In this document: positions 12,869 to 64,000 of the stretch, piece by piece
Layout: each line of letters begins with the position of its first letter
Numbering within the stretch: the first letter of the stretch is position 1
Source of the DNA: Anaerolineales bacterium
GTDB lineage: Bacteria > Chloroflexota > Anaerolineae > Anaerolineales > Villigracilaceae
Assembly: GCA_025056175.1 (NCBI GenBank)
Contig: JANWWK010000042.1
Span: 1 to 64,000 of the forward strand
Length of the DNA stretch: 64,000 bases
Reading direction: 5' to 3'
Notes under the pieces: generated by a model
The model's input: the letters and a program-made list of their open reading frames with translations, nothing else
Databases searched by the model: none
Told to the model about the DNA's origin: nothing
Made by a program: the position numbers and the translations under genes

Positions 12869-12915
12869 ACGGGGGCTCCGTTGAGAATTTAGAGAAAGGG
12901 GCAGCCGTTCAGGTT

Positions 12916-16377: not shown

Positions 16378-16400
16378 AGCTCTCTCTGACAATAAAAGAA

Positions 16401-16433
16401 CCTCTACTGGAAGCGTTTGCTCATCAGTAGAGG
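16401..16433 (-). promoter_or_regulatory. Hairpin in the MutS-like operon leader
   Basis: Nine-base inverted repeat CCTCTACTG/CAGTAGAGG (16401-16409 and 16425-16433). On the minus strand it is followed by TTCTTTTATTG just before the start codon, so it resembles a weak attenuator. The space from 16438 to 16612 shows only a G-run (near 16558) and no gene. Confidence 0.4.
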
Positions 16434-16612
16434 CCATCAGTCCGGTGGACGGTTATGGCGAGCCTCATCGCCGCGTTGATTGTACCACGTCTTGCCAAGG
16501 CAGGGAGATACGGGTGGATGGAGGCGATTTCTTTCCTCTCGCAATGGGAGAGCGGCGGGGGGGGGACGCACCGTAGGGCGGAGTGAGGGCGGCCAGATAA
16601 TTACGATTCTCG

Positions 16613-31103: not shown

Positions 31104-32336
31104 ATGATGAACGAAACACTTGCTTTTGATAAAATCTCTCTCTTACGCCTGGCTTTCAAGGGGTTGAAAGACGAAGAACTGCGCGAAGTGGCTGACCTGA
31201 CGGAGATTCACACCTATCCGTCCGGGCATGTTCTGTGTCAGGAAGGCGCCTACGAGGACATTTTTTACATTATTGCTGATGGAAATGTCATTATCACCAA
31301 AAAAATTGCCGATGGCGAAGGCGAACATGTTCTGAGAGTTGGCGGCAAAGGTGACCTGGTGGGAGAGATGGCGCTCATCCAAAACGCGCCGCGTGCCGCA
31401 ACCGTGCGAACCACCACCGAATGCACCGTTTTGGAAATGGAAAAGCGCGACTTTCAGACCATTTTGAGTCGCAGCCCTGCGATGGCGATAGACATCATCC
31501 GCATCACGCTCGACCGCCTGCGCTCAAACGATTTGCTGGCAATCAACGAATTGAAGCGCGCCAACCAGGTGCTGCGGTTGATGGACCGCAACAAATTGGA
31601 GTTTATTCAGGTTGCAGCGCATGAATTACGCACTCCCCTGACCGTCATCAAGGGGTATGGCAATCTGTTGCGTTCATTTCCAGAAGTCCAGGCCAATCCC
31701 TCGCTGGAAGAAATGCTGGATGGCATTCTCAAAGGCGCCGAACGAATGCACGAAATCGTTAACATGATGCTGGATGTCAGCCGGATTGACGTCGAAACAC
31801 TGACGGTCGCCTCTGTGCCGGTGCTGCTCAAGCGCGTTTTGCAAGGCGTCATCCACACCTTGGGAAACGCTGCCGCTGAACGCAATATCGAAATGCGGCT
31901 GGAATATGCCGAAGACACCCCGATTATTCACGCCGACCCCGTGTTGGTGGAAAAGGCGATTTATCAATTGGCCGTCAATGCTATCAAATACACACCGGAT
32001 GGTGGCGCGGTGACTTTGCGCACCCGTCCGGTGACGCTCGAGGGAGACCTTCCGGGTGTGGAGGTGGCGGTACAAGATACGGGGATTGGTCTGGACCCGG
32101 AACATCACGAATTAATTTTCGAGAAGTTTTATCAGGTCGGCAACGTAGCCTTGCATTCCAGCGGTAAAACCAGTTTTAAGGGGGGAGGCGCCGGTTTGGG
32201 GCTGGCGCTGGTGCGGGGAGTGGCGCGCGCCCATGGCGGCAAAGTGTGGGTGGAAAGTAGCGGGCATGATGAAGTCAACTATCCTGGTTGCACGTTCTAT
32301 TTGCAGTTGCCGCTTCAGCCCCCAGAGAAGAAGTGA
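31104..32336 (+). CDS. Cyclic-nucleotide-binding sensor histidine kinase
   Basis: A 410-residue soluble kinase. Residues about 14-130 form a cNMP-binding domain with a PKA-like phosphate-binding cassette, GEMALIQNAPRAATV (E88, R97), so cyclic nucleotide binding is expected. A coiled linker (about 130-165) joins it to a HisKA/HATPase_c module: phospho-acceptor H173 in AAHELRTPLTV, N-box LAVNAIKYT, G1 DTGIGLD, G2 GAGLGLALV. No response regulator is adjacent. No membrane segment. The gene has a paralogue at 38883. Start is ATG 31104, or 31107. Confidence 0.9.
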   Translation: MMNETLAFDKISLLRLAFKGLKDEELREVADLTEIHTYPSGHVLCQEGAYEDIFYIIADGNVIITKKIADGEGEHVLRVGGKGDLVGEMALIQNAPRAATVRTTTECTVLEMEKRDFQTILSRSPAMAIDIIRITLDRLRSNDLLAINELKRANQVLRLMDRNKLEFIQVAAHELRTPLTVIKGYGNLLRSFPEVQANPSLEEMLDGILKGAERMHEIVNMMLDVSRIDVETLTVASVPVLLKRVLQGVIHTLGNAAAERNIEMRLEYAEDTPIIHADPVLVEKAIYQLAVNAIKYTPDGGAVTLRTRPVTLEGDLPGVEVAVQDTGIGLDPEHHELIFEKFYQVGNVALHSSGKTSFKGGGAGLGLALVRGVARAHGGKVWVESSGHDEVNYPGCTFYLQLPLQPPEKK

Positions 32337-35553: not shown

Positions 35554-37167
35554 CTATAACACCGTTCCCAGCGCTTCGGCACGCAAGAACTGGCCGGTTT
35601 TGGGCAAAAGTTCCAGGTTCAGGTCTAGCAATGAAGTCGGCACAACGCGACAGGCGTGCAACAACTCGTAATCTCGTAAAACATCCTGCGGCCGGCCATC
35701 GGCGCGCACCGTACCGTCGGAGACCAAAATTACGCGGTTGGCATAAATCACTGCTAAATCTACGTCGTGCGTGATGAACAAAACCGCTTCGAAGCCCGGC
35801 ATTTGCAAAATGGCATCCATGAAATTCATGTAATTGCGATAATCTTGCCCGGCGGTTGGCTCGTCCATCACCAGGATTTTTGAACGCATTGCCAGAATCG
35901 CTGCAATCGAAACCCGCTTTTGCTGTCCAAAGGAGAGCGAGAGCGGTGGGTCGTTTTCGCGTTCGCGCAGGTTGACAATTTCCAACGCACGCTTCACATC
36001 TTGTTCGATTTGGGCGGGCGGGTGCTTCAGGTTTTTGGGTCCAAAAGCCAGCTCCTCGCGCACGGTGGGGGCGAACAACATGTGACTGGGGCTTTGGAAG
36101 ACATATCCCAGTGTGCCGGCGATTTCGGCCACGCTCGCCTGGCGTGTATCTTTGCCGTTCACCAGCACGCGCCCGGCCTTTGGTTTGAGCAGGCCGATGG
36201 CGTGCTTGACGAAGGTGGTTTTGCCAGCTCCGTTTGGTCCCAGCACAGCAATCACATCCCCTTTGTTGATTTCAAGGTTGATGCCATGCAGGACTTCGCG
36301 CTCAGATTCGTATCCGAAGGAGACGTTCTCAAACCGCACCAGCGGCATCCCGGCGGAATCTTGCATGCCGGGCAGCAGGGTGATTCTCTCTGGAGCAGGC
36401 TCGTGCGCTGCACGCCGGGCAATCTGTCGCGCCGGAAGTTTTACCTCGCGGAAATCTACTGCGTCTGCCAGGCCTTGCGCATCTCCCGAATAGCGAATTT
36501 CGCCCTCGCTCATGTACATTATCCGGTTCGGATGAATTCTTAAGACATCCTCGACGCGGTGTTCGACCATCAAAATGGTCAACCCTTCATCGGCCAGGCG
36601 GCGAATCATCTCCAGCGCCTCCTGTGCTGAGGCCGGGTCCAGGCTGGCGAGCGGTTCATCCAACAGCAAAATCGAGGGCTTCATCGCCAGTACACCCGCC
36701 AGCGCCACCTTCTGCTTCTCGCCGCCCGAAAGGTGAAAAGTTTCCCGGTCACGCAGGTGCAGAATTTTCAGATAGGCCAGCGCTTCTTCAGCACGGCGGA
36801 TGATTTCAGTGCGCGGCAACCCCATGTTTTCCAGTCCAAAGGCCACTTCGTTGATAACCTTCGTGCCGAGAATCTGCCGTTCTGGGTCTTGCAGCACCGT
36901 CCCTACCATCTGAGAAATACGCGCCAGCGGCAACCCGGTTGTCTCTTGCCCGTGTACCAGGATTTTTCCACTCAGTTCGCCTTTGTACGAGCGCGGAATC
37001 AGACCGTTAATGGCACGAATTAACGTCGTTTTGCCACACCCGCTTGCTCCAGCCAGCAGCAACAGCTCGCCTGGCTCCGCTGAGAATGTGATGTTGTGAA
37101 TGGCCGCCCCCTGCCGGTCGCGGTAACGAAAAGAGACGTTTTCCAGCACCAGCGGCTTGATGCTCAT
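35554..37167 (-). CDS. Fused ECF ATPase with two ABC domains
   Basis: A 537-residue protein carrying both EcfA and EcfA' domains in one chain. The first has Walker A GASGCGKTT, signature LSGGEKQKVALAG and Walker B SILLLDEPLASLD. The second has Walker A GPNGAGKTT, an unusual signature LSFGQQKRVSIAA (Phe for the second Gly), and Walker B ILVMDEPTAGQD. This gives an obligate ATPase pair to drive the ECF transporter. It overlaps the SAM hydrolase gene upstream by four bases. Confidence 0.93.
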   Translation of the reverse strand: MSIKPLVLENVSFRYRDRQGAAIHNITFSAEPGELLLLAGASGCGKTTLIRAINGLIPRSYKGELSGKILVHGQETTGLPLARISQMVGTVLQDPERQILGTKVINEVAFGLENMGLPRTEIIRRAEEALAYLKILHLRDRETFHLSGGEKQKVALAGVLAMKPSILLLDEPLASLDPASAQEALEMIRRLADEGLTILMVEHRVEDVLRIHPNRIMYMSEGEIRYSGDAQGLADAVDFREVKLPARQIARRAAHEPAPERITLLPGMQDSAGMPLVRFENVSFGYESEREVLHGINLEINKGDVIAVLGPNGAGKTTFVKHAIGLLKPKAGRVLVNGKDTRQASVAEIAGTLGYVFQSPSHMLFAPTVREELAFGPKNLKHPPAQIEQDVKRALEIVNLRERENDPPLSLSFGQQKRVSIAAILAMRSKILVMDEPTAGQDYRNYMNFMDAILQMPGFEAVLFITHDVDLAVIYANRVILVSDGTVRADGRPQDVLRDYELLHACRVVPTSLLDLNLELLPKTGQFLRAEALGTVL

Positions 37168-37964
37168 GCGTACACCGCCTCGAAGACATCGCCGACCTGT
37201 ACACCCAACCGTGCCTGGGCGTTGCCGTTGACGACGCAGGCCAGCAGGTTGCCCGTGCTGCCCATCAGCGCCACCAACTCGCCAGGAGCGCGCTCACCAA
37301 ATGTGTTGACCAGGCCGTGAATTTCCGTCCCTGCTATCCGCACAGTGATACGCTCTTTTTGCCGCAGCATCTCGCCAAGATGCTCGCTTCGGATGTTGGA
37401 GGCCACGTTGCCGAAGTGGTCAATATGAATGACCTGTCCACGCCAGCCGGAGGGCGTGCGTTCTGGCCTGGGCAAAGCCAGGCGCACCGGGTCCTCGAAA
37501 GGCGTCCCCAGCGCTTCGAGCGGCGTTCCTGCTGCCAGCCTGCCGGCCACCGGGGCGAAAATATCGCGCCCATGAAAGACATAAGAGACATCGGGAAGCC
37601 AGTATTCGGGCTTGTTCAGGTGAATGAAACGGGTTTCCTGCCCCTGCTGCTCGGCGCGTTCAAGCAGCAGAGTAATGGCGCCGTTATCTGGCCCAACGTA
37701 ATACTGGTTGCCGATAAGTGCTGCCATCGGGCGGCGCGCCGTTCCCACGCCGGGGTCCACTATCACAACGTGAATTGAAAATTCGGGAAAGTAGGGCGCG
37801 GAGCGATACAGAATGAGCGCCGCTTCGGCGATATTTTGCGGCGCTATCAGGTGGCTCAAATCTGAAATCTGCGCCTGGGGCGCAAATTTCCAGATAACAC
37901 CTTTCATCACTCCTACATTCCCATCTTTCAAACCAAAATCGGTCATCAGTGAAACAACGGGCAT
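37164..37964 (-). CDS. SAM hydroxide adenosyltransferase (SAM hydrolase, DUF62)
   Basis: A 266-residue member of the SAM-dependent halogenase-related family. Motifs: SLMTDFGLKDGNVGVMKG at the start, VVIVDPGVGTARRP, GPDNGAITLLLE, YVFHGRDIFAPVAGRLA and VIHIDHFGNVASNI. These enzymes split SAM with hydroxide to adenosine and methionine. It is first in the ECF operon, starts from the ATG at 37964 with AGGAG upstream, and has its own strong promoter. Adenosine made here could be handled by the adenosine kinase encoded at 48187. Halogenase activity is unlikely but not excluded. Confidence 0.92.
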   Translation of the reverse strand: MPVVSLMTDFGLKDGNVGVMKGVIWKFAPQAQISDLSHLIAPQNIAEAALILYRSAPYFPEFSIHVVIVDPGVGTARRPMAALIGNQYYVGPDNGAITLLLERAEQQGQETRFIHLNKPEYWLPDVSYVFHGRDIFAPVAGRLAAGTPLEALGTPFEDPVRLALPRPERTPSGWRGQVIHIDHFGNVASNIRSEHLGEMLRQKERITVRIAGTEIHGLVNTFGERAPGELVALMGSTGNLLACVVNGNAQARLGVQVGDVFEAVYA

Positions 37965-38882: not shown

Positions 38883-40079
38883 TTAAAACACCACCTTAAT
38901 CGCTTTCAGGTGAATGCTGAACGTACTGCCTTTGCCCGGTTCGCTCTCTACGGTGAGCTGTCCATTGTGCTGTTTGATGACCTGCTGGGTAATGGCAAGC
39001 CCTAACCCCAGTCCACTAAACAGGTGTTCGCCGCTTTGTTCAAGATGGTAGAAGCGGTCGAAAATATGGGGCAACCGTTCCTTTTCGATGCCGATGCCAT
39101 GGTCGCTGACAGAGATGATGACGGTGTTCGGGTCTTTTTGCACGCGAATCGTCACCGGGCCGCCGTTAGGGCTAAATTTGATGGCGTTATCCACCAGCGC
39201 CGAGAGTGCGCGTTCCAGCGTCTTGGGGTCGCCCGAAACAGCGGGCAGGTCGGGTTCGCTTTCGACTTGCAGCGTCACCAGATGCGCAGCGGCTTTTTCC
39301 TGAAAGGCTTCGACAACGTTTTGAACGATTTCCTGTATTCGCACCGGCTGAAATTTTGGCAGAATCAAATCCATTTCTTGCAGGAACAAAATATCGTTGA
39401 CCAGCGCGGTAATTTGTGCAATGTTGCGTGCAACTGCTTGCAGCGTGCCTGGCAGTTTATCGGGCGTTATCAGACCGTTTTGGATCAGTTGCAAGAAGCC
39501 TCCGGCTGCCATCAGTGGGGTGCGTAACTGGTGGGCGATATTGCTCAAAAATTCGCGCCGTGCCAGTTCCTGTTCGGCCAGTTTCTGGTAGGCCTGGGCT
39601 AATTCGCTGGTGCGAATGCGGAGGTCTTCGATAGCCATCTCGTCGTTCTCGCGCAGACGGGTCGAAATCTCACGCACCATTGCAATTGCTACGCTGGAAG
39701 AATGCCGTAAGACGCGCTCGAAATCCTCGCGGTCAATCTCCATCACCGTTACGGGTTCGACGGCTGTCACCGTTGCAGCGCGCGGCGCGTTGTGGATGAG
39801 CGCCATCTCACCAAAGAAGTCGCCTGCTTCCAATTCTTTAAGATGTCTTTGTTCGATGTTGTTGATGGTTTTGGTAACGTTTACCCGTCCCTCGAGCAGG
39901 ATGTAAAATTTTGATTCGACTTTGCCCTCGTGTGTCAGGACAGTGCCGGCAGGATACGTCTGCACCTGACCGCTCTGCAGGAGTTCCTGAATTTCCCACT
40001 GATTGATGCCCGGAAAGGCGCGCACGAGAATTTCTTTGGGGGAAGGCAGGGATTTGCGGGGAAAATCCAGTGTGTTCAC
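38883..40079 (-). CDS. Cyclic-nucleotide-binding sensor histidine kinase (paralogue)
   Basis: A 398-residue kinase with the same architecture as the one at 31104. The cNMP-binding domain (about 15-135) has the cassette GEMALIHNAPRAATV (E91, R100). A coiled linker leads to HisKA (H183 in IAHQLRTPLMAAG) and HATPase_c (LVDNAIKFS, DHGIGIE, GLGLGLAI). Start is taken as GTG 40079 because GAGG lies five bases upstream; a TTG at 40100 is also open. Soluble, no response regulator adjacent. It lies 29 bases after the alpha/beta hydrolase gene on the same strand, so both may be cotranscribed. Confidence 0.9.
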   Translation of the reverse strand: MNTLDFPRKSLPSPKEILVRAFPGINQWEIQELLQSGQVQTYPAGTVLTHEGKVESKFYILLEGRVNVTKTINNIEQRHLKELEAGDFFGEMALIHNAPRAATVTAVEPVTVMEIDREDFERVLRHSSSVAIAMVREISTRLRENDEMAIEDLRIRTSELAQAYQKLAEQELARREFLSNIAHQLRTPLMAAGGFLQLIQNGLITPDKLPGTLQAVARNIAQITALVNDILFLQEMDLILPKFQPVRIQEIVQNVVEAFQEKAAAHLVTLQVESEPDLPAVSGDPKTLERALSALVDNAIKFSPNGGPVTIRVQKDPNTVIISVSDHGIGIEKERLPHIFDRFYHLEQSGEHLFSGLGLGLAITQQVIKQHNGQLTVESEPGKGSTFSIHLKAIKVVF

Positions 40080-40108
40080 AGGTACCTCACTTGCGCTCAA
40101 ACATATTT

Positions 40109-47077: not shown

Positions 47078-48130
47078 ATGAGAACAGTTTTTTGGGAAAA
47101 TGGCCAGCTGTGGATGATTGACCAGCGTCTCTTGCCAGAGACGTTTACAGTTGTTTCGTATCGGACGCATACCGAAGTTGCTCAGGCCATCCAGGAGATG
47201 GTGGTGCGCGGCGCTCCAGCCATTGGCGCGGCGGCGGCTTTTGGTCTGGCGCTGGCGGCGTTTGAATCGCGCGCGCAAACTGCCGGTGACCTGCTCTCCG
47301 ATTTGCAGGCTGCCGCTGTTACCTTGAAGGCCGCCCGCCCAACGGCGGTGAACCTGGCCTGGGCGGTGGAGCGGGTTTTGCAATCCGCTACCCGCGTTTC
47401 CCCTTCCTCGGCGGATGAACTTCGCGCCTGGGTGCTTTCGGAAGCTCAGAAACTGGCCGATGAAGACGTGGAAGTGAACAAACGCATGGCGACGCATGGC
47501 GCGGAATTGATTGCGGATGGCGATACGATTGTTCATCACTGCAACACCGGTGCGCTGGCAACGGTGGACTGGGGAACGGCGCTGGGCGTGATTCGCATGG
47601 CCTGGGAGCAGGGCAAGCGCATTCACGTTCTGGTCGATGAAACCCGCCCGCGTTTGCAGGGCGCGCGCCTGACGGCCTGGGAGCTGGAGCAGTACGGCAT
47701 TCCCTACGAAATCATCAGCGACAACATGAGCGGCTACTTCATGCGCGCCGGGAAGGTGCAAAAAGTCCTGTTCGGCGCAGATAGAATCACGGCCAACGGC
47801 GATGTTGCCAATAAAATCGGCACGTACATGCTGGCGCTGGCCGCCCACGATAACGGCATCCCGGCCTATTCGGTGGCGCCGACTTCGACCATTGACCTGT
47901 CGCTCGAACACGGTGGATTGATTCCGATTGAGGAGCGCAACCCGGCCGAAGTGCTGGAAATTCAACTGGCCGGCGAGCGCGTCACCCCGCGCAACGCCAA
48001 AGCCCGCAACCCGGCTTTCGACGTCACTCCCAACCGTTTGATTACCGCGATTGTCACTGAGAACGGTATCGCTTATCCGCCGTTCGAGGTCAGCCTGCGG
48101 AAATGCGTGAGGCGTGATTCATCGTTTTGA
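47078..48130 (+). CDS. mtnA: S-methyl-5-thioribose-1-phosphate isomerase
   Basis: A 350-residue isomerase of the methionine salvage pathway: converts 5-methylthioribose 1-phosphate to the ribulose form. Catalytic C155 lies in HHCNTGALAT and D235 in LFGADRIT. IQEMVVRGAPAIGAAAAFG near residue 38 is the family's N-terminal motif. It belongs to the eIF2B-like alpha/beta/delta superfamily, but the Cys and Asp favour MtnA. No other mtn gene is next to it. The following gene is an adenosine-kinase-like PfkB protein. Confidence 0.94.
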   Translation: MRTVFWENGQLWMIDQRLLPETFTVVSYRTHTEVAQAIQEMVVRGAPAIGAAAAFGLALAAFESRAQTAGDLLSDLQAAAVTLKAARPTAVNLAWAVERVLQSATRVSPSSADELRAWVLSEAQKLADEDVEVNKRMATHGAELIADGDTIVHHCNTGALATVDWGTALGVIRMAWEQGKRIHVLVDETRPRLQGARLTAWELEQYGIPYEIISDNMSGYFMRAGKVQKVLFGADRITANGDVANKIGTYMLALAAHDNGIPAYSVAPTSTIDLSLEHGGLIPIEERNPAEVLEIQLAGERVTPRNAKARNPAFDVTPNRLITAIVTENGIAYPPFEVSLRKCVRRDSSF

Positions 48131-48186: not shown

Positions 48187-49146
48187 ATGGACATCCTGCT
48201 CTCCGGTTCCGTTGCTTACGACTACCTGATGACCTTCCCTGGTCATTTTCACGAACAAATCCTGCCTGAACGGTTGAAGAACATCAGCCTGTCATTTCTG
48301 GTGGATAGCATGACCCGTCAGCGCGGCGGGATTGCGCCGAATATTGCTTACACTCTGGCTCTGCTGGGCGAAAAACCCCGCCTGTTCGCCACAGTGGGTG
48401 AAGATTTTGGCGAGTATCGCGCCTGGCTCGAACAACACGGCATTGATACCACCTGGGCAAAGGTGATTCCGGGCAAATTCACGGCTTCCTTCTTCGCTAC
48501 GACGGATAAGGTCAATGCCCAGATTGCCTCTTTCTACCCGGGTGCGATGGCCGATGCCGCCCTCCTTTCGCTGCATGACCTCGACCGCCGCCCCGACCTG
48601 GTGGTCATTTCTCCCACCGCGCCCGATGCCATGCGAAAGCACGCCGCTGAATGCCGGGCCCTGGGCATTCCGTATCTGTTTGACCCCTCGCAGCAGGTGC
48701 TTCGACTTGAAGGCGCGGAACTGGCTGAAGATATGAACGGCGCGCGCTTCCTGTTTTGCAATGATTACGAGTTCGGGTTGATTTCCAAGAAAACCGGCCT
48801 GGCTTTGCAGGATATGCTCAAAATGGTGGAAGTGATTGTCATCACCAAAGGCGCGGAGGGCGCGGTCATCTATGCCGATGGTCAGGAGGTAGTCGTGCCG
48901 GTCGTTCCCGAAGAGCGGATTGTGGACCCAACCGGCGTGGGCGATGCCTTCCGGGGCGGTTTCCTGGCGGCCTACGCACGCGGTTGGGATTGGAGGCTGT
49001 GTGGGCAGGTTGGCTCTCTGGCGGCGGTCTATGTCCTGGAGCAAAACGGCACGCAAAATCATTATTACACACGTCAGCAGTTTGTCGAACGTTTCCGCCG
49101 GAATTACGATGATGGCGGAAAGCTGGACGAATTATTGCGTGATTGA
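48187..49146 (+). CDS. PfkB-family kinase, probable adenosine kinase
   Basis: A 319-residue ribokinase-fold kinase. PfkB signature 2 is VDPTGVGDAFRGGFLAAYARG near residue 246, with the catalytic Asp in GVGD. RGGIAPNIAYTLALLG near residue 47 is the family's N-terminal substrate motif. Its overall look, with SGSVAYDYLMTFPGHF at the start, matches actinobacterial-type adenosine kinases more than sugar kinases. Placed between mtnA and ahcY it would remove adenosine made by SAH hydrolysis. No ribosome-binding site is visible, because the repeat tract reaches the start. Confidence 0.82.
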   Translation: MDILLSGSVAYDYLMTFPGHFHEQILPERLKNISLSFLVDSMTRQRGGIAPNIAYTLALLGEKPRLFATVGEDFGEYRAWLEQHGIDTTWAKVIPGKFTASFFATTDKVNAQIASFYPGAMADAALLSLHDLDRRPDLVVISPTAPDAMRKHAAECRALGIPYLFDPSQQVLRLEGAELAEDMNGARFLFCNDYEFGLISKKTGLALQDMLKMVEVIVITKGAEGAVIYADGQEVVVPVVPEERIVDPTGVGDAFRGGFLAAYARGWDWRLCGQVGSLAAVYVLEQNGTQNHYYTRQQFVERFRRNYDDGGKLDELLRD

Positions 49147-49154
49147 GCAATTTG

Positions 49155-50587
<1,433 letters not shown>

Positions 50588-52880: not shown

Positions 52881-53012
52881 GTTGTAGTTATTCTTCTGTA
52901 AAAACTCTTCCTCAACACAAACGCGCAAGGCTGCAAGGAACTTTTTCATTAAACCGTTCAACTTTCGTTATGTCCCTGCGCACCGATTGTGGTGACCAGG
53001 CTTTTTTCAGCA

Positions 53013-55190
53013 ATGGACTTTCTCTCCTCCCTTAACCCCGCGCAGCGCGCTGCCGTAACCGCCGGAGATGGCCCCGTGCTGGTGTTGGCCGGACCGGGTT
53101 CCGGTAAAACGCGCGTTCTCACCCAGCGGATTGCGTATTTGATTGCCTATCAGGGGGTGCGTCCGTATCAGATGTTGGCCGTCACCTTCACCAACAAAGC
53201 CGCACGCGAAATGGAACACCGCGTGCAAAATCTGTTGGGCGAAGAGATGACGCGCGGCCTCTTGCTCGGCACGTTCCATGCTGTGTGCGCGCGCATTCTG
53301 CGCCGCGAGGCGGAAAAACTCCCCGTTTCGAGCGAATTCGTCATCTTTGATGCCGATGACCAGGAAACGCTGGTCAAGAACGCCATCCGCGACCTGAACC
53401 TCGATGACAAAACCTATCGCCCGGTCTCCGTTCACGCTGCCATCAGCCGTGCCAAAAATGAACTGCTCTCGCCCGACCAGTTCCCCGTCGTCACCTACCG
53501 GGATGAAGTCGTCAAACGCGTATATCAGCGTTACCAGCAGCTTCTGCGCGAATCGAACGCGGTAGATTTTGACGACCTGCTTTTGTTGACCGCGAACCTG
53601 CTGGCTGAGTTTCCCGATGTGCGCGAAAAATATGCCGCGCGCTTCCGCCATGTGCTGGTAGATGAATTCCAGGATACCAACATGGCGCAATACACCCTGC
53701 TCAGGCATCTCTCCTCGGTTCATAACAACATCTTCGTAGTGGGCGACCCCGACCAGAGCGTGTACCGCTGGCGCGGGGCCGATTATCGCAATGTACAGCG
53801 TTTTGAGCAGGATTTTCCGGGCGCACAGGTGATTTTGCTGGAACAAAACTACCGCTCCAAACAGAGCATTCTCGATACAGCAATGGCAGTGATTGACAAA
53901 GCCCCCCACCGCCGCAAGAAGAAACTCTTCACCGAACGCGGACAGGGCGATAAAGTTGTATTTTACGAAGCCTTTGATGACTACGGCGAGGCCAGTTTCG
54001 TGGTAGATACGATTGCCCAACTGGTTGCCAGTCGGCAGTTTGAGCCAGGCGATTGCGCGGTGATGTATCGAACCAACGCCCAAAGCCGCATTCTGGAAGA
54101 AGCCTTCTTGCAGGCACGTCTGCCCTACCGCCTGGTGGGAGCGCAGCGCTTCTATGGTCGCCGCGAAGTGAAAGACGTGATTGCCTTTCTGCGCCTGGTG
54201 CAGAACCCCAACGATGAACTCTCGCTCGATAGAGTCATCAACCTGCCTCCGCGCGGCATCGGCAACAAGACCCTGCTCACCCTGCATCTCACCGCCCGCG
54301 AAGCCGAAAGCACACCCGGACAAATTCTGCTTGACCTGGCACGCGGAGCCGCTTCTCCCTTTTGGGGCAAATTTTCCGGGCGGGCAGCCCTGCCCCTGGC
54401 CGATTTTGGCGCGCTCCTGGCTGCCTGGCGCGGTTTGCTCGGAACATACACTGTGCCGGAATTGTTCGACCGCATTCTCAAAGACATCAACTACCTGGAA
54501 TATCTCGATGACGGCACCGAAGAAGGCCAGGACCGCATCGAAAACGTGCGCGAATTGCGCCGCCTGGCCGAAGAATACCAGACCCGCACCTTGGCCGAAT
54601 TTCTGGAGAATGTGGCGCTCGTCAGCGACCAGGACACCATTCAGGACGGTAATGTGCCGACTTTGTTGACCATGCACGCCGCCAAAGGGCTGGAGTTCGG
54701 CGTTGTGTTCATTGTGGGTCTGGATGATGGTGTTTTGCCGCATAGCCGTTCGTTTGATGACCCTGAAGCGATGGAAGAAGAACGCCGTCTGTTCTATGTG
54801 GGCATCACCCGTGCCAGAGAACGGCTCTACCTGGTGCGCGCGATGCGCCGCGCCGGGCGTGGATATGCGGAAGAGATGGTTGAATCGCGCTTTTTGGACG
54901 ACATTCCTCCCGAATTACTCAACGGCAAAGCGCGGGCTCCGCGCCGTAAAGATAGCTTCGACCGCCGCGCAGGCTACGATTCCTGGAAATTGCCCTCTCC
55001 GCCGCATCCGGCACCGGTTCGAGTACAAAAATTCCAGGCCGGAATGCGTGTGCGGCATCCTCTCTGGAAGGACGGCATCGTCTTGCATAGCCGTTTGGAA
55101 GGAGAAGATGAAATCGTGGATGTCGTCTTTGAGAGCGTTGGCATCAAACGCCTGGCGGTCAGCCTGGCGAATCTGACCGTGATACAATGA
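53013..55190 (+). CDS. UvrD/PcrA-type superfamily 1 DNA helicase
   Basis: A 725-residue 3'-5' helicase for repair and replication. All SF1A motifs are clear: Q-motif LNPAQRAAV, motif I AGPGSGKTRVLTQR, Ia TFTNKAAREM, II VLVDEFQDTN, III GDPDQSVYRWRGAD, IV QNYRS, V TMHAAKGLEF, VI VGITRARERLYL. A C-terminal PcrA-like tail (GMRVRHPLWKDGIVL) binds RNA polymerase in homologues. ATG at 53013 (MDFLSSLN) is preferred to the upstream GTG 52989, which lacks a site. Family position (PcrA versus UvrD) is not resolved. Confidence 0.94.
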   Translation: MDFLSSLNPAQRAAVTAGDGPVLVLAGPGSGKTRVLTQRIAYLIAYQGVRPYQMLAVTFTNKAAREMEHRVQNLLGEEMTRGLLLGTFHAVCARILRREAEKLPVSSEFVIFDADDQETLVKNAIRDLNLDDKTYRPVSVHAAISRAKNELLSPDQFPVVTYRDEVVKRVYQRYQQLLRESNAVDFDDLLLLTANLLAEFPDVREKYAARFRHVLVDEFQDTNMAQYTLLRHLSSVHNNIFVVGDPDQSVYRWRGADYRNVQRFEQDFPGAQVILLEQNYRSKQSILDTAMAVIDKAPHRRKKKLFTERGQGDKVVFYEAFDDYGEASFVVDTIAQLVASRQFEPGDCAVMYRTNAQSRILEEAFLQARLPYRLVGAQRFYGRREVKDVIAFLRLVQNPNDELSLDRVINLPPRGIGNKTLLTLHLTAREAESTPGQILLDLARGAASPFWGKFSGRAALPLADFGALLAAWRGLLGTYTVPELFDRILKDINYLEYLDDGTEEGQDRIENVRELRRLAEEYQTRTLAEFLENVALVSDQDTIQDGNVPTLLTMHAAKGLEFGVVFIVGLDDGVLPHSRSFDDPEAMEEERRLFYVGITRARERLYLVRAMRRAGRGYAEEMVESRFLDDIPPELLNGKARAPRRKDSFDRRAGYDSWKLPSPPHPAPVRVQKFQAGMRVRHPLWKDGIVLHSRLEGEDEIVDVVFESVGIKRLAVSLANLTVIQ

Positions 55191-55259
55191 GCGGAAGTGG
55201 ATAAAACCAGGAGGATGGATGCTTCATCGTCAGTCAATTTCGCTACAGGAGTTCTCATC

Positions 55260-56270
55260 GTGACCGAGACGCTCAAAATCATTATCCCCATGGCGGGCTG
55301 GGGAACGCGCATGCGCCCGCATACCTGGAGCAAGCCTAAACCGCTGGTCAGCGTGGCCGGACGCACCTCGTTCGACCACCTGATGGATATGTTCAAGACC
55401 GTGCCAGACCCGGAAAGAACCGAATATGTTTTTATCATCGGGCCGTTTTTGGGTGAGCAAATCCCCGTCTATGTGCAGAAGCACTACCCGCACATCACGG
55501 CGCATTACGTGGTGCAGGAGGAGATGAAAGGTCAGAGCCATGCGCTCTGGCTGGCGCGACATCACCTGAAAGGGCCGACCATCATGGTCTTTTCCGATAC
55601 CCTGCTGGAGACGGATTTCTCCTTCCTGGCGCAGGAAGAGTGTGACGGCGTGGCGTGGGTAAAAGCCGTGCCAGACCCGCGCCGCTTCGGTGTGGCTGAA
55701 GTGAAAGATGGTTACATCTCACGGCTTATCGAAAAGCCCCAAACGATGGAAAACAACCTGGCACTGGTGGGCTGCTATTATTTCAAACGCGGCGAAGAGC
55801 TGGTGAACGCGATTAACGAACAAATGAAACGCGGGATTGCCCTCAAAGGTGAGTATTTCCTGGCTGATGCCATCAACATCATGCTCGATTATGGCGCGCG
55901 CATGCGAACACACAGCGTGGATGTGTGGCTGGATACCGGTACTATCGAGGCCACGCTGGAGACGAACAGGTACATGCTCGAACATGGCCGCGATAACTCG
56001 CAGGAGGCCGCGCAACGGCCCGGCATCACGGTTGTCCCGCCGGTGTTTGTTCATTCTTCGGCCAAAATCAATGCTTCGGTCATCGGGCCAAACGTTTCTA
56101 TCGGCGCAGAATGCGAGGTCTCCGGCTGTGTGTTACGCAACAGCATCCTCGATGACGGCGCTACCGTGACCGATTCGGTGCTGGATGGCTCGTTTATCGG
56201 CAGACACGCCCGCATCAAAAGCCGCCCGGCCAGCGTCAATATTGGCGATAATTCCAGCGTGCAACTTTAG
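55260..56270 (+). CDS. Sugar-nucleotide pyrophosphorylase (RmlA/GlmU-like)
   Basis: A 336-residue nucleotidyltransferase. The N-terminal motif IIIPMAGWGTRMRPHTWSKPKPL is the catalytic GxGxRxxPxT-K loop, and the C-terminal part (about 255-335) is a left-handed beta-helix hexapeptide repeat (VIGPNVSIGAEC, VTDSVLDGSFIG). It makes an NDP-sugar from a sugar 1-phosphate. A GTG start at 55260 has AGGAG nine bases upstream; the frame is open back to 55197 but has no usable site there. The sugar is not identifiable. Only 69 bases separate it from the helicase. Confidence 0.87.
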   Translation: MTETLKIIIPMAGWGTRMRPHTWSKPKPLVSVAGRTSFDHLMDMFKTVPDPERTEYVFIIGPFLGEQIPVYVQKHYPHITAHYVVQEEMKGQSHALWLARHHLKGPTIMVFSDTLLETDFSFLAQEECDGVAWVKAVPDPRRFGVAEVKDGYISRLIEKPQTMENNLALVGCYYFKRGEELVNAINEQMKRGIALKGEYFLADAINIMLDYGARMRTHSVDVWLDTGTIEATLETNRYMLEHGRDNSQEAAQRPGITVVPPVFVHSSAKINASVIGPNVSIGAECEVSGCVLRNSILDDGATVTDSVLDGSFIGRHARIKSRPASVNIGDNSSVQL

Positions 56271-58361: not shown

Positions 58362-58386
58362 AGTACCTCGGAGGGGAGATGATTTG

Positions 58387-58453: not shown

Positions 58454-58482
58454 TTGACTTTAATGTCAGACAAGTACATAAT
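58454..58482 (+). promoter_or_regulatory. Promoter of the deaminase-CYTH gene
   Basis: TTGACT at 58454-58459, 17-bp spacer, CATAAT at 58477-58482; AAAGGAG lies before the ATG at 58517. Confidence 0.65.
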
Positions 58483-58516
58483 AGGTCAACCTGTATTCCG
58501 AAAAAAAGGAGACCCC

Positions 58517-60487
58517 ATGACCCAAACTGTAGATATTCTGCTGACTAACGCGCACATTTTGACGATGGATGAAGAGTTCCGGCAATACCGGCGCGGCGCA
58601 CTGGCCGTGCAGGGCGATTCGATTGTAGCCGTGGGACCGCAGGAGGAGGTAACTACCCAATTTACTGCCTCGCAAGTGCTGGATTGTGGCGGAAAAGTGT
58701 TGATGCCTGGCCTGGTGAACGCCCATACACACGTGCCCATGACCCTGTTGCGCGGCTTAGCCGATGATTTGCGGCTGGATGTGTGGCTGTTGGGGTATAT
58801 GTGGCCGGTGGAGCGGGAATTTGTCTCACCGGCGTTTTGTCGTTTGGGAACGCTCATCGCCTGTGCCGAATTCATCAAGAGCGGGGTCACTGCCTTTGCC
58901 GATATGTATTTCTTCGAGGACGATGTGGCACAGGCAACCGCGGAGGCTGGTCTGCGTGGCGTGTGCGGACAATCGGTGTTGAAGTTTCCCACCTCCGATT
59001 CGCCCTCTTTCGAGGATGCGCTGGCGCGAGCGCGTGAATTCATTCAAAAGTGGAAAGGCCACCCGCTGATTGTTCCCTCCGTCGCTCCGCACGCGCCTTA
59101 TTCCACCACCCCCGAAATTCTCAAGGCGTGCGCGCAGCTGGCCGCTGAGTTTGATGTTCCCCTTCAGATTCATCTTTCGGAAACCGCGCAGGAGGTGGAA
59201 ACCATGCGCGAAGAGAACGGTATGCCGGTCGTACCATACGTCAAGAAACAGGGCCTGTTCGAGGCCAAAGTGCTGGCGGCGCATTGTGTTCATGTTGACG
59301 AAGGTGAAATGCGCACGCTCCTGCACGCCCGCGCCGGAGTGGCGCATAACCCCTCCTCGAACCTGAAACTGGCCTCCGGCTTTGCACCCGTGAGCAAGAT
59401 GCTCGAAACCGGCCTGAACGTTGGCATTGGCACCGATGGGCCGGCCTCGAACAATGACCTGGATATGTTCGAGGAAGTGCGCCTGGCTGCCCTGCTGGCA
59501 AAAACCGTTTCGAACGACCCCACCAGCCTGCCGGCCTGGCAAGCATTGGCAATGGCAACCCGCATTGGTGCGCAGGCCATGCACATCGGGCATCTGACCG
59601 GTTCACTCGTCCCCGGAAAGCGCGCCGACCTGATTCTGGTGGATTTGAACCCTCTGCACAATTCACCGCGTTTCGAGCGCGACCCGAATGGGCCGTATGC
59701 TCAAATTGTGTATGCCGCCAAATCTACCGATGTGACCGATGTGATGGTCAACGGCAGGTGGCTGATGCGCGACCGTCAACTCTTGACCCTGAACGAAGCC
59801 GAATTGCTGGCCCAGGCCGCTGAATATGCCCGCCGCATTGACGCCTTCCTGACGGCGCGTGAGCAATCGGTGTTGAGCAAACTGATTGCATTGGGCGGCT
59901 CCAGCGAAGAAGAGTCCTACGAAGTGCAGGTCAAAGTCCGTCTGCCTGATTCGGCGCAGATTGAAACGGCCTTGCGCTCTCCCGAATTGGAAGTTCTCTA
60001 CGCGCGGCATTACCGTCAGTACGACCACTATTTCTCGTTCGACGACCCGGCACAGGGACGTCTGCGTTATCGCGAAGATGATTTGATTGATGCGAAGGGC
60101 AAAGTGACCGGAGTGCGCACGCGGCTGACACTGATTGGGCAGACACGCGAAGGCTCCTTTAGTGGCGATATTCTGCTTTCGCGCTCGCGTTACCTGGCCC
60201 CGGCTGCTCAAACCCTGCGCTTCTACCGCGAATACTTCCGCCCGGCCGAGGAGAAAGTGGTGGAAAAAGACCGCCTGCGCTGGAAAGTGAAGTATAAGGG
60301 CGAGGAGTTTTACATCAACCTGGATACCATCCAGCGGCCTGAGATGGGGCGTTTTCTGGAAATCAAAAGCCGCACCTGGAGCCGCAAAGACGCGCAGCAC
60401 AAGGCGCAACTGGCCGAAGAACTGCTGGCCCTGGTTGGTGCGGCAGAAGCCGAGCGTATTACCAGCGATTACGTGGCGCTGGCCTAA
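58517..60487 (+). CDS. MTA/SAH-deaminase-like amidohydrolase fused to a CYTH domain
   Basis: A 656-residue fusion. Residues 1 to about 455 form a MtaD/SsnA-type amidohydrolase: H70 and H72 in NAHTHVPM bind metal, and VAPHAPYSTTPE, HLSETAQEVE, AAHCVHVDE and GTDGPASNNDLDMFEE complete the site. Known relatives deaminate methylthioadenosine and SAH. Residues about 467-650 form a CYTH domain (YEVQVKVRL with one Glu replaced by Gln, QYDHYFSFDD, RLRYRED, FLEIKSRTW), the family of class IV adenylate cyclases and tri-/polyphosphatases. ATG at 58517 has AAAGGAG. The fusion is not one I recall; the joint function is unknown. Confidence 0.87.
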   Translation: MTQTVDILLTNAHILTMDEEFRQYRRGALAVQGDSIVAVGPQEEVTTQFTASQVLDCGGKVLMPGLVNAHTHVPMTLLRGLADDLRLDVWLLGYMWPVEREFVSPAFCRLGTLIACAEFIKSGVTAFADMYFFEDDVAQATAEAGLRGVCGQSVLKFPTSDSPSFEDALARAREFIQKWKGHPLIVPSVAPHAPYSTTPEILKACAQLAAEFDVPLQIHLSETAQEVETMREENGMPVVPYVKKQGLFEAKVLAAHCVHVDEGEMRTLLHARAGVAHNPSSNLKLASGFAPVSKMLETGLNVGIGTDGPASNNDLDMFEEVRLAALLAKTVSNDPTSLPAWQALAMATRIGAQAMHIGHLTGSLVPGKRADLILVDLNPLHNSPRFERDPNGPYAQIVYAAKSTDVTDVMVNGRWLMRDRQLLTLNEAELLAQAAEYARRIDAFLTAREQSVLSKLIALGGSSEEESYEVQVKVRLPDSAQIETALRSPELEVLYARHYRQYDHYFSFDDPAQGRLRYREDDLIDAKGKVTGVRTRLTLIGQTREGSFSGDILLSRSRYLAPAAQTLRFYREYFRPAEEKVVEKDRLRWKVKYKGEEFYINLDTIQRPEMGRFLEIKSRTWSRKDAQHKAQLAEELLALVGAAEAERITSDYVALA

Positions 60488-60562: not shown

Positions 60563-63500
60563 TTATGGCAGGCGGAAACGCATCACCCGCCCATTGCCGG
60601 CGTCTGTCACCCACAGGTTGCCGTTGTTATCCAGTGCCAGGCCGCTCGGCAAGCCAAAACTGGCCGGGCTGGCGCCAAACGTCCCCCACAGGCGGATGAA
60701 CTGCCCCGTGCGGTCGAATTGCAGCACGCGGTAGCCCTCGGGGTCGGTCACGAACACCCAGCCCTGCGGGGAGACGGCAATATACGGCTTGTTGTCCAGG
60801 CTCTGGCTCTTCCAGCCGCGAATCGGCCATTGCAGGGTGGGGATGTAGGTCAGGCCGTCCTCGAGCGGGCTGAAGACCTGCACACGGCGGTTCCACGTAT
60901 CGGTGATGTAGGCGTTGCCTTCTGTGTCGAGTTTCACATCTACCGGTTCGTTGAATTGTCCGGGCTGAATGCCAGCATCGCCGAACGCGCCAAGAACGGT
61001 TCCGTTTGAGTCGTAAATGACAATGCGTTTATTGCCGGTATCGGCCACAAAGACACGCCCCTGAGCATCTACGGCGATGCCGCGCGGCCCGTAGAGCGCG
61101 CCGGGTGTATCCGCCAGACCGAACACGCCCCACATAGCAATCGGCTCTCCGTTGGGCGTGAATTTCTGCACCCGATGATTCCACGTATCGGTGACGTAGA
61201 CACTGCCATCTGGTCCAACGGCTACGCCCCAGGGTTCATTGAATGTGCCTGCGGGGGCGCTTCCGGCGGTCAGGTCGCCAAACGTGCCAAAGGCACCGAG
61301 CAGGTTGCCTTGCGAATCGAAGTGTTGAATACGGTGATTGCGTGAATCGGCCACGTAGAAGGTGCCATCAGGCGCAAAGGCGATGCCGCGCGGGGCGTTG
61401 AATTGACCGGGTTCACTGCCAGATGTGCCAAAGACCAGGTCGGCTTCCAGCACGGTGATTCCAGCGGCATAGGGGTCGGGCTTCAGGTCGGCAGCTTTAA
61501 TGCCGTAATTCCACACCAAATCGGCCACATCTTTGCGGATATACAGCCTCATGCGGTCGGACGGGTCCCAGTTGGCATCGGTGAAGGTATCGCGTCCGGT
61601 CAGTTGGGCGTAGCGGGTGTAATCGCGGTTCAGCCAAATTTCGAAGATGGCGGTACGCATTTGCGGGTCGGCCAGCGCGTTGCACACACGCGAGTAATCG
61701 CGGTTACGAATCAGCCGGAAGACGCTCAACACCCCGGGACAGTAGCCATCGGGGAAAGGTTCGTCCGGATTGTAGCGTTCGCTCACCAGGTTGAAGTAAT
61801 CCTGATTCGGCCACACCATGCGCACATAGTCGAAGCGATAATAGTCTTCGCCCACGACCGGTTCGATTTTGGCGTAGTTGTTATCACCGACGATGATGGC
61901 CGGCACATCGCGCAGCGACATATCGGGTGTACTGCCGTAGAAGCGGGCGTTGGGGAAGTGAATCATGTACCATGACATCGGCCAGGAGACATCGTCATCG
62001 TAGGCAACGACAATGTCGCGTGGCGTGCCGACCGTGTGAAGGGAGAGTTTTTCCACTTCCCGCAAGACGTGTTTGACGCCAGTGTAACTATGGGCGTACA
62101 CCAGGTATTCCTGTCCGCTATCGTAGTTGACATACGCGGCGCGGAACGATGCCCGCGCAGTGAGCAGTGCCAGGAAGCCAAAAAAGACCAGCAAGGCCAG
62201 ATAGGCCGCCTGCCGCGGTTCCCAATCATCGAACAGGCGGTAGAGACCGTAGCCGCTGGCCAGCGCACCCAGCAGGCCAAACAGGAAGGTGGTGGTGGCC
62301 TGCAATTGCGCCAGTTCCGTGCCGGAGAACGGCGGGGGGTAGCCGACCAGCGATGCAGCCATCCCCAGCGTGCTGGCGATGAACACAAACACCAGTGCAA
62401 GCGTAAGCACAGGGCGGTTGTGGCGCAGGGAATCCCAATCTACTCGTTCAATAAGCGCGCCAATCGCCCATCCGCCAAACAGGACGAAGGGCAGAGCAAT
62501 GTGGATGGTGAGCCACGGCATGCGTTCACCGGCAATGCTGAAGGCGGCCAGGTTGCCCACCGACCACCACCCCAGCAGGGCGTAGGTGTTGGGCAAATTG
62601 ACCGAGACTGAGTCCGTTTTGTTTTGTGCCTGTCTGAGCCAGCGCGGTCCCACCAGGAAGGCGAACAACACCGCCAGCGCGGGTAAGAACTCATAGACCG
62701 GGATTTGCACCAGCAGGTAGTAATACAGGGGTTGGCTGCCGCGTTCAACGCCGTGTTGTTCTATCCAATAAGCCAGGGAACCGATGAGGCCGGTGAAGAA
62801 GCCCGCGCCGTTGGTGAACATGGTGGTATAGAACACGGTGAAAATTGCGTAGAACAGCAGGGCAATTTTCCACCACAAATCCCGGTTCCAAAACAGGCCG
62901 AGTGCCACCGCTAACCCCACAAAGACGGCCAGGATGAGGAACATCAGAACCAGCCCCTCGGAGGTGAAGGTCTGTAAGTCGGCGGCGTTGACAGGGATAG
63001 CGACTCGAATGCCCCAAATCCGTTCGGTGATGGGCGAGAGGTATTCCATCGGAAAGGCGGCCAGCATGGGCAGAACGAGCGTGCCAGTGACCATTGCCAG
63101 GTCGAAGGCGCGCTCTTTGCGGATATTTTCCATGCCATAGCCGCGAATGACGAAGTAGAGCGCCGCCCCCAGGGCGGCCGCGCCCAACAAACCCAGGACG
63201 AGCACCGGTTCCAGCCCGCTGGAGGGCAACGCCAGCGGAGAGGTGGCTTGGCCGGGCAGGGAAGGTGAGGCGGTTTGTGCCGGGTTGAGCGTTTCCTGAC
63301 CCTCCGACATGCGCCACAAGAGCGCTCCGCCCAGGAACAGCGCTCCAATGATCAGGCTCACCACGAAGGCGGTAAATTCTTGTCGGGCGTTTTCCCACGG
63401 TTTGCGGGTGATGCGGGCCACCAGGTAAGCAGCCAGGAACAGGAGCAGGAGCGCATCGTAGATGAAAGCGGTCTCTTTAACGGTAAAATGCATCACCTGC

Positions 63501-64000
63501 GCTCCTGCCAGGATGAACAGGTAGCGGGATTCGCCGCTTTCCAGGTAGCGCAAGACGGCGTACAGCATCACCAGGCCATACAGGACGGCAAATACATCTT
63601 CGCGCACGTAACGGCCATAGTAGAGCATGTAAGGCGAAAGCAGCATCAGCGTCCCTGCCGCCAGCACACCGGCGCGTCCCAGATAGCGTCGCCATGGCCA
63701 TAACAGCCAGACCATCGCAATACTGAACAAGACCGAGGGAATGCGGGCGGTGAAATCGTTGGCGCCGAAAATGAAGTAGGAGAGCGCGATGAAGTGATAC
63801 ATGCTCGTCCCGTGCATCATCGGGTTGTGAATGTATCCGCGCCCTTCGGCCAGTTCATTGGAGAAATAGGTGTGCAGGCTTTCATCGTGGCTCATCACGC
63901 GCGTTTCCAGGTCATAGAAGCGTGTGACGATGGTCAGCAGCACCAGGACGGCGAAGACCAGCACTTCCACCGTCAACCAGGGGAGGGAGGGGATGGGAGT
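60563..64000 (-). CDS. Agl23-like GT39 glycosyltransferase with NHL beta-propeller (5' end cut)
   Basis: Visible part 1145 residues; the frame is open to the window edge, so the start lies outside. The N-terminal half (about 1-570) has about 12 membrane helices and the GT39/PMT-like loop SHDESLHTYFS with HNPMMHGTSMYH, matching the flippase-associated Agl23-like family. A soluble middle region follows, then from about 845 a beta-propeller of NHL repeats, e.g. FNAPRGIAFAPDGTFYVADS, FNEPWGVAVGPDGSVYVTDT, LYGPRGIAVDAQGRVFVADT. The glycosyltransferase would use a polyprenyl sugar; the propeller could bind glycan or protein. Confidence 0.88.
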   Translation of the reverse strand, partial: TPIPSLPWLTVEVLVFAVLVLLTIVTRFYDLETRVMSHDESLHTYFSNELAEGRGYIHNPMMHGTSMYHFIALSYFIFGANDFTARIPSVLFSIAMVWLLWPWRRYLGRAGVLAAGTLMLLSPYMLYYGRYVREDVFAVLYGLVMLYAVLRYLESGESRYLFILAGAQVMHFTVKETAFIYDALLLLFLAAYLVARITRKPWENARQEFTAFVVSLIIGALFLGGALLWRMSEGQETLNPAQTASPSLPGQATSPLALPSSGLEPVLVLGLLGAAALGAALYFVIRGYGMENIRKERAFDLAMVTGTLVLPMLAAFPMEYLSPITERIWGIRVAIPVNAADLQTFTSEGLVLMFLILAVFVGLAVALGLFWNRDLWWKIALLFYAIFTVFYTTMFTNGAGFFTGLIGSLAYWIEQHGVERGSQPLYYYLLVQIPVYEFLPALAVLFAFLVGPRWLRQAQNKTDSVSVNLPNTYALLGWWSVGNLAAFSIAGERMPWLTIHIALPFVLFGGWAIGALIERVDWDSLRHNRPVLTLALVFVFIASTLGMAASLVGYPPPFSGTELAQLQATTTFLFGLLGALASGYGLYRLFDDWEPRQAAYLALLVFFGFLALLTARASFRAAYVNYDSGQEYLVYAHSYTGVKHVLREVEKLSLHTVGTPRDIVVAYDDDVSWPMSWYMIHFPNARFYGSTPDMSLRDVPAIIVGDNNYAKIEPVVGEDYYRFDYVRMVWPNQDYFNLVSERYNPDEPFPDGYCPGVLSVFRLIRNRDYSRVCNALADPQMRTAIFEIWLNRDYTRYAQLTGRDTFTDANWDPSDRMRLYIRKDVADLVWNYGIKAADLKPDPYAAGITVLEADLVFGTSGSEPGQFNAPRGIAFAPDGTFYVADSRNHRIQHFDSQGNLLGAFGTFGDLTAGSAPAGTFNEPWGVAVGPDGSVYVTDTWNHRVQKFTPNGEPIAMWGVFGLADTPGALYGPRGIAVDAQGRVFVADTGNKRIVIYDSNGTVLGAFGDAGIQPGQFNEPVDVKLDTEGNAYITDTWNRRVQVFSPLEDGLTYIPTLQWPIRGWKSQSLDNKPYIAVSPQGWVFVTDPEGYRVLQFDRTGQFIRLWGTFGASPASFGLPSGLALDNNGNLWVTDAGNGRVMRFRLP

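Follow-up and report, generated by a model that had tools for sequence, protein, structure and literature searches.

Organization of the locus and of the fusion gene

The window, that is, the whole stretch of 64,000 nucleotides analysed here, carries on its plus strand a gene (58517..60487) encoding a protein of 656 amino acids, delimited by its open frame (656 codons plus stop), by Pfam and by relatives of full length. The protein comprises an MtaD-type amidohydrolase domain (residues 1-440, 58517..59836; Pfam, NCBIfam and fold comparison), a helical linker (residues 441-466, 59837..59914; predicted structure and conservation) and a CYTH / triphosphate-tunnel domain (residues 467-656, 59915..60484; Pfam and predicted fold). 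An alternative in-frame ATG lies upstream, at 58379; we place the start at 58517 because the sequence AAGGAG (58506..58511, +), a probable ribosome-binding site, precedes that ATG and because close relatives align from there. A sigma-70-like promoter match, TTGACT-N17-CATAAT (58454..58482, +), which is a match to the consensus only, stands back to back with a minus-strand match directed towards surE. Third-position GC is even across the domain join (0.63-0.70), and the AlphaFold2 model of the whole protein, built on an alignment of 48 sequences, reached a pLDDT of 91.3 and a pTM of 0.83. Three linker residues, F444, E449 and K455, are invariant in 114/114 distinct sequences; taken as a whole, the linker exceeds the deaminase only a little in conservation (9/26 versus 112/380 positions conserved at 95% or more).

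At 8-11 kb upstream of the fusion gene, the window contains mtnA (47078-48130, +), a PfkB kinase gene (48187-49146, +) and ahcY (49175-50587, +). This neighborhood is not conserved: each of the three genes was found upstream of the fusion gene in 0/20 relatives, 15 of which had at least 16 kb of upstream sequence, and surE adjoins the gene in one of the 20 relatives for which the upstream side was fetched. We also surveyed the neighbors at 61 loci (the window from position 50001 on, 19 distant and 41 near loci), 59 of which contain the fusion gene; this set, whose flanks hardly reach 8-11 kb, holds a single mtnA-like gene (at L141). No conserved operon was found around the fusion gene in the survey, the neighbors within approximately 6 kb varying by lineage: genes encoding a CinA-like protein, an M14 peptidase and an unassigned protein adjoin it in part of the Anaerolineae (0/19 distant loci), and CoaE follows it in 6/19 distant loci. 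Since the neighborhood is unconserved, the genomic context points to no ligand. An Rfam search of the window at the gathering threshold gave a tRNA and a fluoride riboswitch and no SAM riboswitch.

The deaminase half

Pfam Amidohydro_1 matches residues 61-415 (E 1.5e-71), an amidohydrolase fold across the full family length, which bears out the complete MtaD-type domain claimed in the preliminary description. The metal motif His70-x-His72 (58724..58732, +), also noted there, is conserved among the fused sequences; H70, H72, H192, H219, E222, H256 and D307, which we take to be equivalent to the metal and catalytic residues of Thermotoga TM0936, are all present in 113/113 sequences covering the deaminase. 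Among the best 25 of 69 NCBIfam results, the highest score (473.3 bits, NF006549) is below its cut-off of 540, and the MTA/SAH model NF012037 scores 295.1 bits, not reaching its cut-off of 779.

Residues 1-447 superimpose on the adenosine/MTA deaminase structures 4dyk and 4gbd (Pseudomonas aeruginosa), 4dzh (Xanthomonas campestris) and 4f0r (Chromobacterium violaceum) with Z 57.2-58.9, rmsd 1.2-1.7 and 38-40% identity, and share their metal-site residues; the best solved relatives are 4dzh, 4dyk and 4f0r (Z 57.8-58.9). Unlike the fusion protein, these structures (aligned chains of 434-439 residues) have no CYTH domain. The TM0936 MTA/SAH deaminase (1p1m) has the same fold (Z 51.4, 34% identity to the window deaminase) and is likewise a single-domain protein. 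Judged by its sequence, the deaminase half is probably active on adenosine-like compounds.

The CYTH half and its fold

The preliminary description placed the start of a CYTH domain near residue 467. The Pfam match to CYTH (PF01928) spans residues 468-639 with E 0.0011, its 19.2 bits lying below the cut-off of 23.2; some fused orthologs exceed this cut-off, for example with 31.6 (G277:C46), 29.0 (G135:C9) and 28.0 bits (G018:C1), and 23 of 48 fused members match PF01928 at E 0.01 or better. As the fold search with the whole model returned amidohydrolase-type entries only, the CYTH domain was folded alone. The AlphaFold2 model of residues 462-656 (pLDDT 90.8) matches 2een with Z 18.7 (VIA) and rmsd 2.1 over 164 residues, the class IV cyclase YpCyaB (3n0z) with Z 17.3 and SaTTM (7ns9) with Z 17.1, 7ns9 also being the best Foldseek match (E 3.0e-8). 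The tunnel fold is common to the CYTH tripolyphosphatases 5a60 and 5a5y (Z 14.3 and 13.6), and Mediator entries titled Med18/20 or Med8C/18 match as well (Z 11.9-12.6). Residues 467-656 are thus predicted to adopt the CYTH/triphosphate-tunnel fold, in agreement with the boundary first proposed. Searched against PDB sequences, the profile of the fused CYTH domains found no chain at E up to 1, so the domain is distant in sequence from the solved members, and fold comparison is its sole link to them.

Distribution and origin of the fusion

With the full protein as query, a full-length fusion was found in 57/61 genomes of the same genus, family and order, including its own; in the other four, G007 and G019 hold pieces, and G004 and G008 (63% and 62% complete) give weaker paralogue-like matches only. 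When residues 460-656 were the query, matches came from 62 of 301 phylum genomes and 115 of 199 class genomes, the two samples overlapping. All matches of at least 180 of the 197 residues lie in frames of at least 650 codons, except one in G195 (347 codons) that runs off its contig, and none of the matches seen in the 301 phylum and 199 class genomes is a complete separate gene for the CYTH half. Short partial matches in the class sample (G465, G504, G368, G445, G447 and G476) were taken for contig-end pieces. The best 80 of 560 matches in a contig scan all bear Chloroflexota titles. As to the earlier question of lineage specificity, the fusion is patchy within Chloroflexota. We would guess that Chloroflexia is the second class with the fusion. 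Plasmid records gave 347 with a relative (E up to 1e-20), none covering 80% of the fusion, and 0 matches to the CYTH half.

The deaminase half, searched in 29 genomes with no CYTH match, gave some match in 25. The 26 unfused loci examined in them show at most 44% identity and stop no more than 24 residues past the match, except G355 (68%), which is interrupted at residue 319 and is placed inside the fused clade. A tree of deaminase halves, with 28 of the 48 fused representatives, 26 unfused sequences, the two paralogues from the window's own genome and the truncated L191, puts all 28 fused rows on one side of a branch with SH-aLRT 100, in a quick reconstruction with no bootstrap and with some long unfused branches. 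The distances of the two halves agree (r = 0.91; 0/1000 permutations as high), the CYTH half evolving faster than the deaminase (mean distance 0.49 versus 0.38). Given this branch and the agreeing distances, the data fit a single fusion event followed by joint inheritance and losses. In the set of loci, 110 of 111 are full length and 94 are distinct; alignments A1/A2 contain 48/49 representatives, L145, cut by a contig end, being left out although it is among the 114 distinct sequences.

Other CYTH matches of the order also lie in long frames (532-860 codons), namely G546:C74:7781-8290, G554:C203:2280-2819, G543:C150:1579-2124, G039:C97:12312-12842, G565:C155:128841-129365 and G059:C186:8420-8953. 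There may be further CYTH fusions with other partners in this order.

An altered metal site in a conserved tunnel

The 48 fused domains were compared with 29 separate CYTH genes found in the same order by means of a profile alignment (161 columns, E 4.5e-6, probability 86.6%), so residues were matched across families at moderate probability and by columns, not by superposed coordinates. From the 31 CYTH loci L161-L190 and L116, similarity to L116 brought in these 29 and missed L173 and L185, and the canonical counts therefore lean towards proteins resembling L116; two of the 29 have frames of 412-413 codons and may be multi-domain.

The alignment pairs ExQxK (E469, Q471, K473; 59921..59935, +) with the canonical ExExK, R517-x-R519 (60065..60073, +) with RxR, residue 540 with the lysine of TxK, R556-x-R558 with RxE (Arg558, 60188..60190, +, at the glutamate position), K584-x-R586 with KxR (within KxRxR, i.e., K584, R586, R588; 60266..60280, +), D603 (60323..60325, +) with the aspartate of LD, and E615-x-K617 (60359..60367, +) with ExE. 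All twelve residues E469, Q471, K473, R517, R519, R558, K584, R586, R588, D603, E615 and K617 are identical in 114/114 distinct fused sequences, although 149 of the 190 positions of the CYTH region fall below 95% conservation. In contrast, the separate CYTH proteins carry the canonical residues in 29/29, including glutamate at the three positions altered in the fused domain. The preliminary description had already noticed the glutamine replacing the second glutamate of ExExK (Gln471), and had supposed that activity might be altered or lost; to this are added Lys617 for the second glutamate of ExE and Arg558 for the glutamate of RxE. At residue 540, the TxK lysine has also been lost, the fused sequences having mostly Ile, Leu, Val or Met, which weakens any claim of an intact anion cage. 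Because the three metal-side glutamates have been exchanged uniformly whereas the bases on the phosphate side have mostly been kept, we read the tunnel changes as selection rather than decay.

The meaning of these positions can be gauged from rules set out in the parts of two papers used here. In SaTTM, the triphosphate together with E5, E7 and E137 binds two calcium ions; of the ExE glutamates, the first serves metal 1, and metal 2 is served by the second (PMC8233210). For AtTTM3, an acidic patch of Glu-2, Glu-4, Glu-90 and Glu-171 is described, Glu-2 being also a metal-2 ligand; changes of Glu-2, Glu-4 or Glu-169 strongly lower tripolyphosphatase activity, changes of Glu-90 reduce it and those of Lys-76 reduce it moderately, and two metal centers are considered necessary in TTM catalysis (PMC4641920). 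Glu-171 is named in the patch, and the text drawn on reports no mutant of Glu-171 itself (PMC4641920). Q471 and K617 stand at the positions of SaTTM E7 and E137 and of AtTTM3 Glu-4 and Glu-171, respectively, while AtTTM3 Glu-2 and Glu-169 correspond to the retained E469 and E615; the RxE glutamate (R558 here) is probably Glu-90, and the TxK lysine probably Lys-76. Of the residues of CYTH tripolyphosphatases, those binding phosphate (RxR and KxR, i.e., R517, R519, K584 and R586) are present in 114/114, whereas the metal motifs ExExK and ExE are absent, replaced in 114/114 by ExQxK and ExK. Most basic substrate-binding residues are common to the fused domain and proteins of the SaTTM type (7ns9, 5a60, 5a5y).

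Class IV cyclases, according to the same source, have HF four residues before ExExK, a small residue in place of the first arginine of RxR, which is missing, and ExA (PMC8233210). In the 48 fused sequences, residue 464, the position of the phenylalanine, is never Phe, and R517 and K617, at the sites of the small residue and of the alanine of ExA, are present in 114/114. The window protein also has no W/YxRxR motif of ThTPases, position 515 being Arg in it and in 36/48 sequences, with Trp and Tyr in three relatives each. The published rules argue against a class IV cyclase, a ThTPase and a canonical triphosphatase, the signature of an active tripolyphosphatase being incomplete here.

SAM by-product metabolism and the likely substrate

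The genome that contains the window encodes two further relatives of the deaminase at full length, which pass the NCBIfam 8-oxoguanine deaminase and SsnA models; these being of the 8-oxoguanine deaminase / SsnA type, the fusion protein is the only MtaD-like deaminase found in its own genome. An MTA phosphorylase passes TIGR01694 (305.8 versus 274.85) and lies barely above the threshold of the methylthioinosine phosphorylase model (226.3 versus 223), and MtnA and AhcY are encoded as well. The link to breakdown of SAM by-products suggested in the preliminary description is plausible from the deaminase family alone; mtnA, the PfkB gene and ahcY each occur upstream of the fusion gene in 0/20 relatives.

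The window AhcY carries HVTTE, an instance of HxTxE, the motif described as SAH-preferring, and the SAHH that partners TM0936 is described in the same portion of text as cleaving SIH in addition (PMC10978960). A route from SAH through SIH to AhcY, which we considered, is weakened by this motif in the window AhcY. Because of it, we favor MTA, 5'-deoxyadenosine or adenosine over SAH and infer that one of these, rather than mainly SAH, would be the main substrate. Another SAM-consuming enzyme, a SAM hydroxide adenosyltransferase family protein with both Pfam domains, is encoded in the window at 37164-37964 (-).

Possible functions of the fused domain

The fusion itself and the conserved substitutions are established, as is the CYTH fold at the level of prediction. 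The best explanation that we can offer for them, held tentatively and with slightly less than even confidence, is an active MTA/adenosine-type deaminase joined to a pseudo-triphosphatase tunnel whose binding of a polyphosphate-type ligand tunes the deaminase. Med18/Med20 give a precedent for loss of catalysis in this fold. The deaminase half would carry out metal-dependent deamination of adenosine-like SAM by-products. The tunnel keeps most of the basic cage for a polyphosphate-type anion, together with two glutamates, E469 and, at the metal-1 position, E615, while three acidic residues of the metal patch, including those matching SaTTM E7 and E137, have given way to Gln, Lys and Arg. As the metal-patch glutamates are replaced and the basic cage is mostly kept, we infer that a triphosphate-like ligand (an NTP, tripolyphosphate, a polyphosphate end or similar) may be bound and left unhydrolysed, Lys617 and Arg558 possibly substituting for metal 2, and its binding might be relayed allosterically through the helical linker to the deaminase. 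The retention of the metal-1 glutamate E615 and of the metal-2-type E469 has to be set beside this and, in the case of E469, counts against it, as do the lost TxK lysine, the small margin by which the linker exceeds the deaminase in conservation and the faster evolution of the CYTH half. A bolder version, possible though rather doubtful, is that of a new subclass of CYTH domains whose catalytic metal site is partly taken over by invariant Gln, Arg and Lys, and whose non-hydrolysing tunnel reads the level of triphosphate or polyphosphate and so sets how fast the deaminase clears SAM by-products. If true, this would link the phosphate or energy state directly to methyl and radical-SAM metabolism in Chloroflexota.

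Among the rivals, which we rank in the order altered catalysis, structural role, ordinary triphosphatase and cyclase, the first sees in the CYTH domain an enzyme of altered chemistry (a pyrophosphatase, a phosphotransfer or a one-metal reaction) working beside the deaminase. We regard it as unlikely, yet the charged tunnel residues are as invariant (114/114) as an active site would be, the metal-1 glutamate E615 and E469 are retained, and plant TTM1/2 are described as having no ExExK while AtTTM2 is active on pyrophosphate in vitro (PMC8233210, in part), so that the conserved Lys and Arg could, by analogy, serve another reaction. This reading has to contend with the replacement of three acidic metal-patch residues of known members, changes in two of which, Glu-4 and Glu-90, reduce the activity of AtTTM3 (PMC4641920, in part).

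Quite unlikely, in our judgment, is a solely structural domain that stabilizes or oligomerizes the deaminase and has no specific ligand. It would suit the finding that CYTH matches of at least 180 residues all stand in a fused frame but one, at a contig end, and it has a parallel in Med18/Med20, members of the TTM fold that seem to have lost catalysis (PMC4641920, in part), although these are eukaryotic scaffold subunits, unlike the bacterial fusion, and are likened to it by fold, not by residue sets. What it leaves unexplained is the invariance of the charged tunnel residues in a region of which most positions (149/190) are free to vary.

SAM synthetase generates tripolyphosphate. An ordinary triphosphatase or ThTPase clearing it next to SAM metabolism would have this supply at hand and the CYTH fold of such enzymes and their relatives (Z 13-19); it is nonetheless very unlikely, as Q471 and K617 occupy the sites of metal-binding glutamates in 114/114 and, for a ThTPase, Trp or Tyr is missing from the motif position in 42/48 sequences, including the window protein.

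The preliminary description had also connected the fusion with cyclic nucleotides through two cNMP-binding kinases of the window. Both are there, as histidine kinases with an N-terminal cNMP_binding domain besides HisKA and HATPase_c (31104-32336, +, and 38883-40100, -), approximately 26 and 18 kb from the fusion gene, and the fold matches YpCyaB (Z 17.3). A class IV adenylyl cyclase feeding these kinases is, however, highly improbable, and cAMP signaling was rejected as the main reading: the HF motif is missing (464 never Phe in 48), Arg517, the arginine missing in class IV cyclases, is kept in 114/114, and 13 stretches of the own genome match class III cyclase domains, so the kinases need no cyclase from the fusion protein. 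An assembly or frame error joining two genes near 59890, a concern raised at the outset that the union of two different domain families in one frame might prompt, has negligible probability and was rejected, given the full-length fusion in 57/61 genomes, its presence in Chloroflexota-titled contigs and the even third-position GC.

Both folds are already known; new are their pairing and the ExQxK/ExK tunnel, by which the fused domain differs from the canonical separate CYTH genes (ExQxK for ExExK, ExK for ExE, Arg for the RxE glutamate, and the TxK lysine gone). Known CYTH fusions, such as CYTH-CHAD (YgiF), plant TTM1/2 and those with HD, exopolyphosphatase or nucleotidyl kinase, resemble the present one in having a second domain. 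The partners named in the part of one account used here are HD, exopolyphosphatase, nucleotidyl kinase, CHAD and phosphoribulokinase, with no amidohydrolase (PMC8233210). In the open PMC literature, which excludes subscription papers and database-only annotation, we found no description of a CYTH-amidohydrolase fusion, the only co-mention of both words being an unrelated GWAS. The fold alone often leads to CYTH domains being named as enzymes, and this large, old family offers a natural test of the tunnel as a sensor. For the recycling of SAM by-products in Chloroflexota it is a candidate control point, and it cautions against annotating the fusion protein as a cyclase or triphosphatase.

Other features of the window

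The fluoride riboswitch (16421-16481, -; 43.4 bits versus a cut-off of 34) overlaps the beginning of a frame on the minus strand (14842-16437) that encodes MutS domain V; another protein with MutS domain V (13343-14845) comes next. A protein encoded at 11618-12919 (-) combines a DUF190 domain with four CBS matches. At 55197-56270 (+) lies a nucleotidyltransferase (NTP_transferase) with a weak, below-cut-off LbH_EIF2B match at its end, directly preceded by a UvrD-like helicase frame (52989-55190), the helicase being named from its sequence. Beyond the fusion gene, 60563-63976 (-) encodes a protein of 1137 amino acids with a PMT_2-type mannosyltransferase domain and C-terminal NHL repeats.
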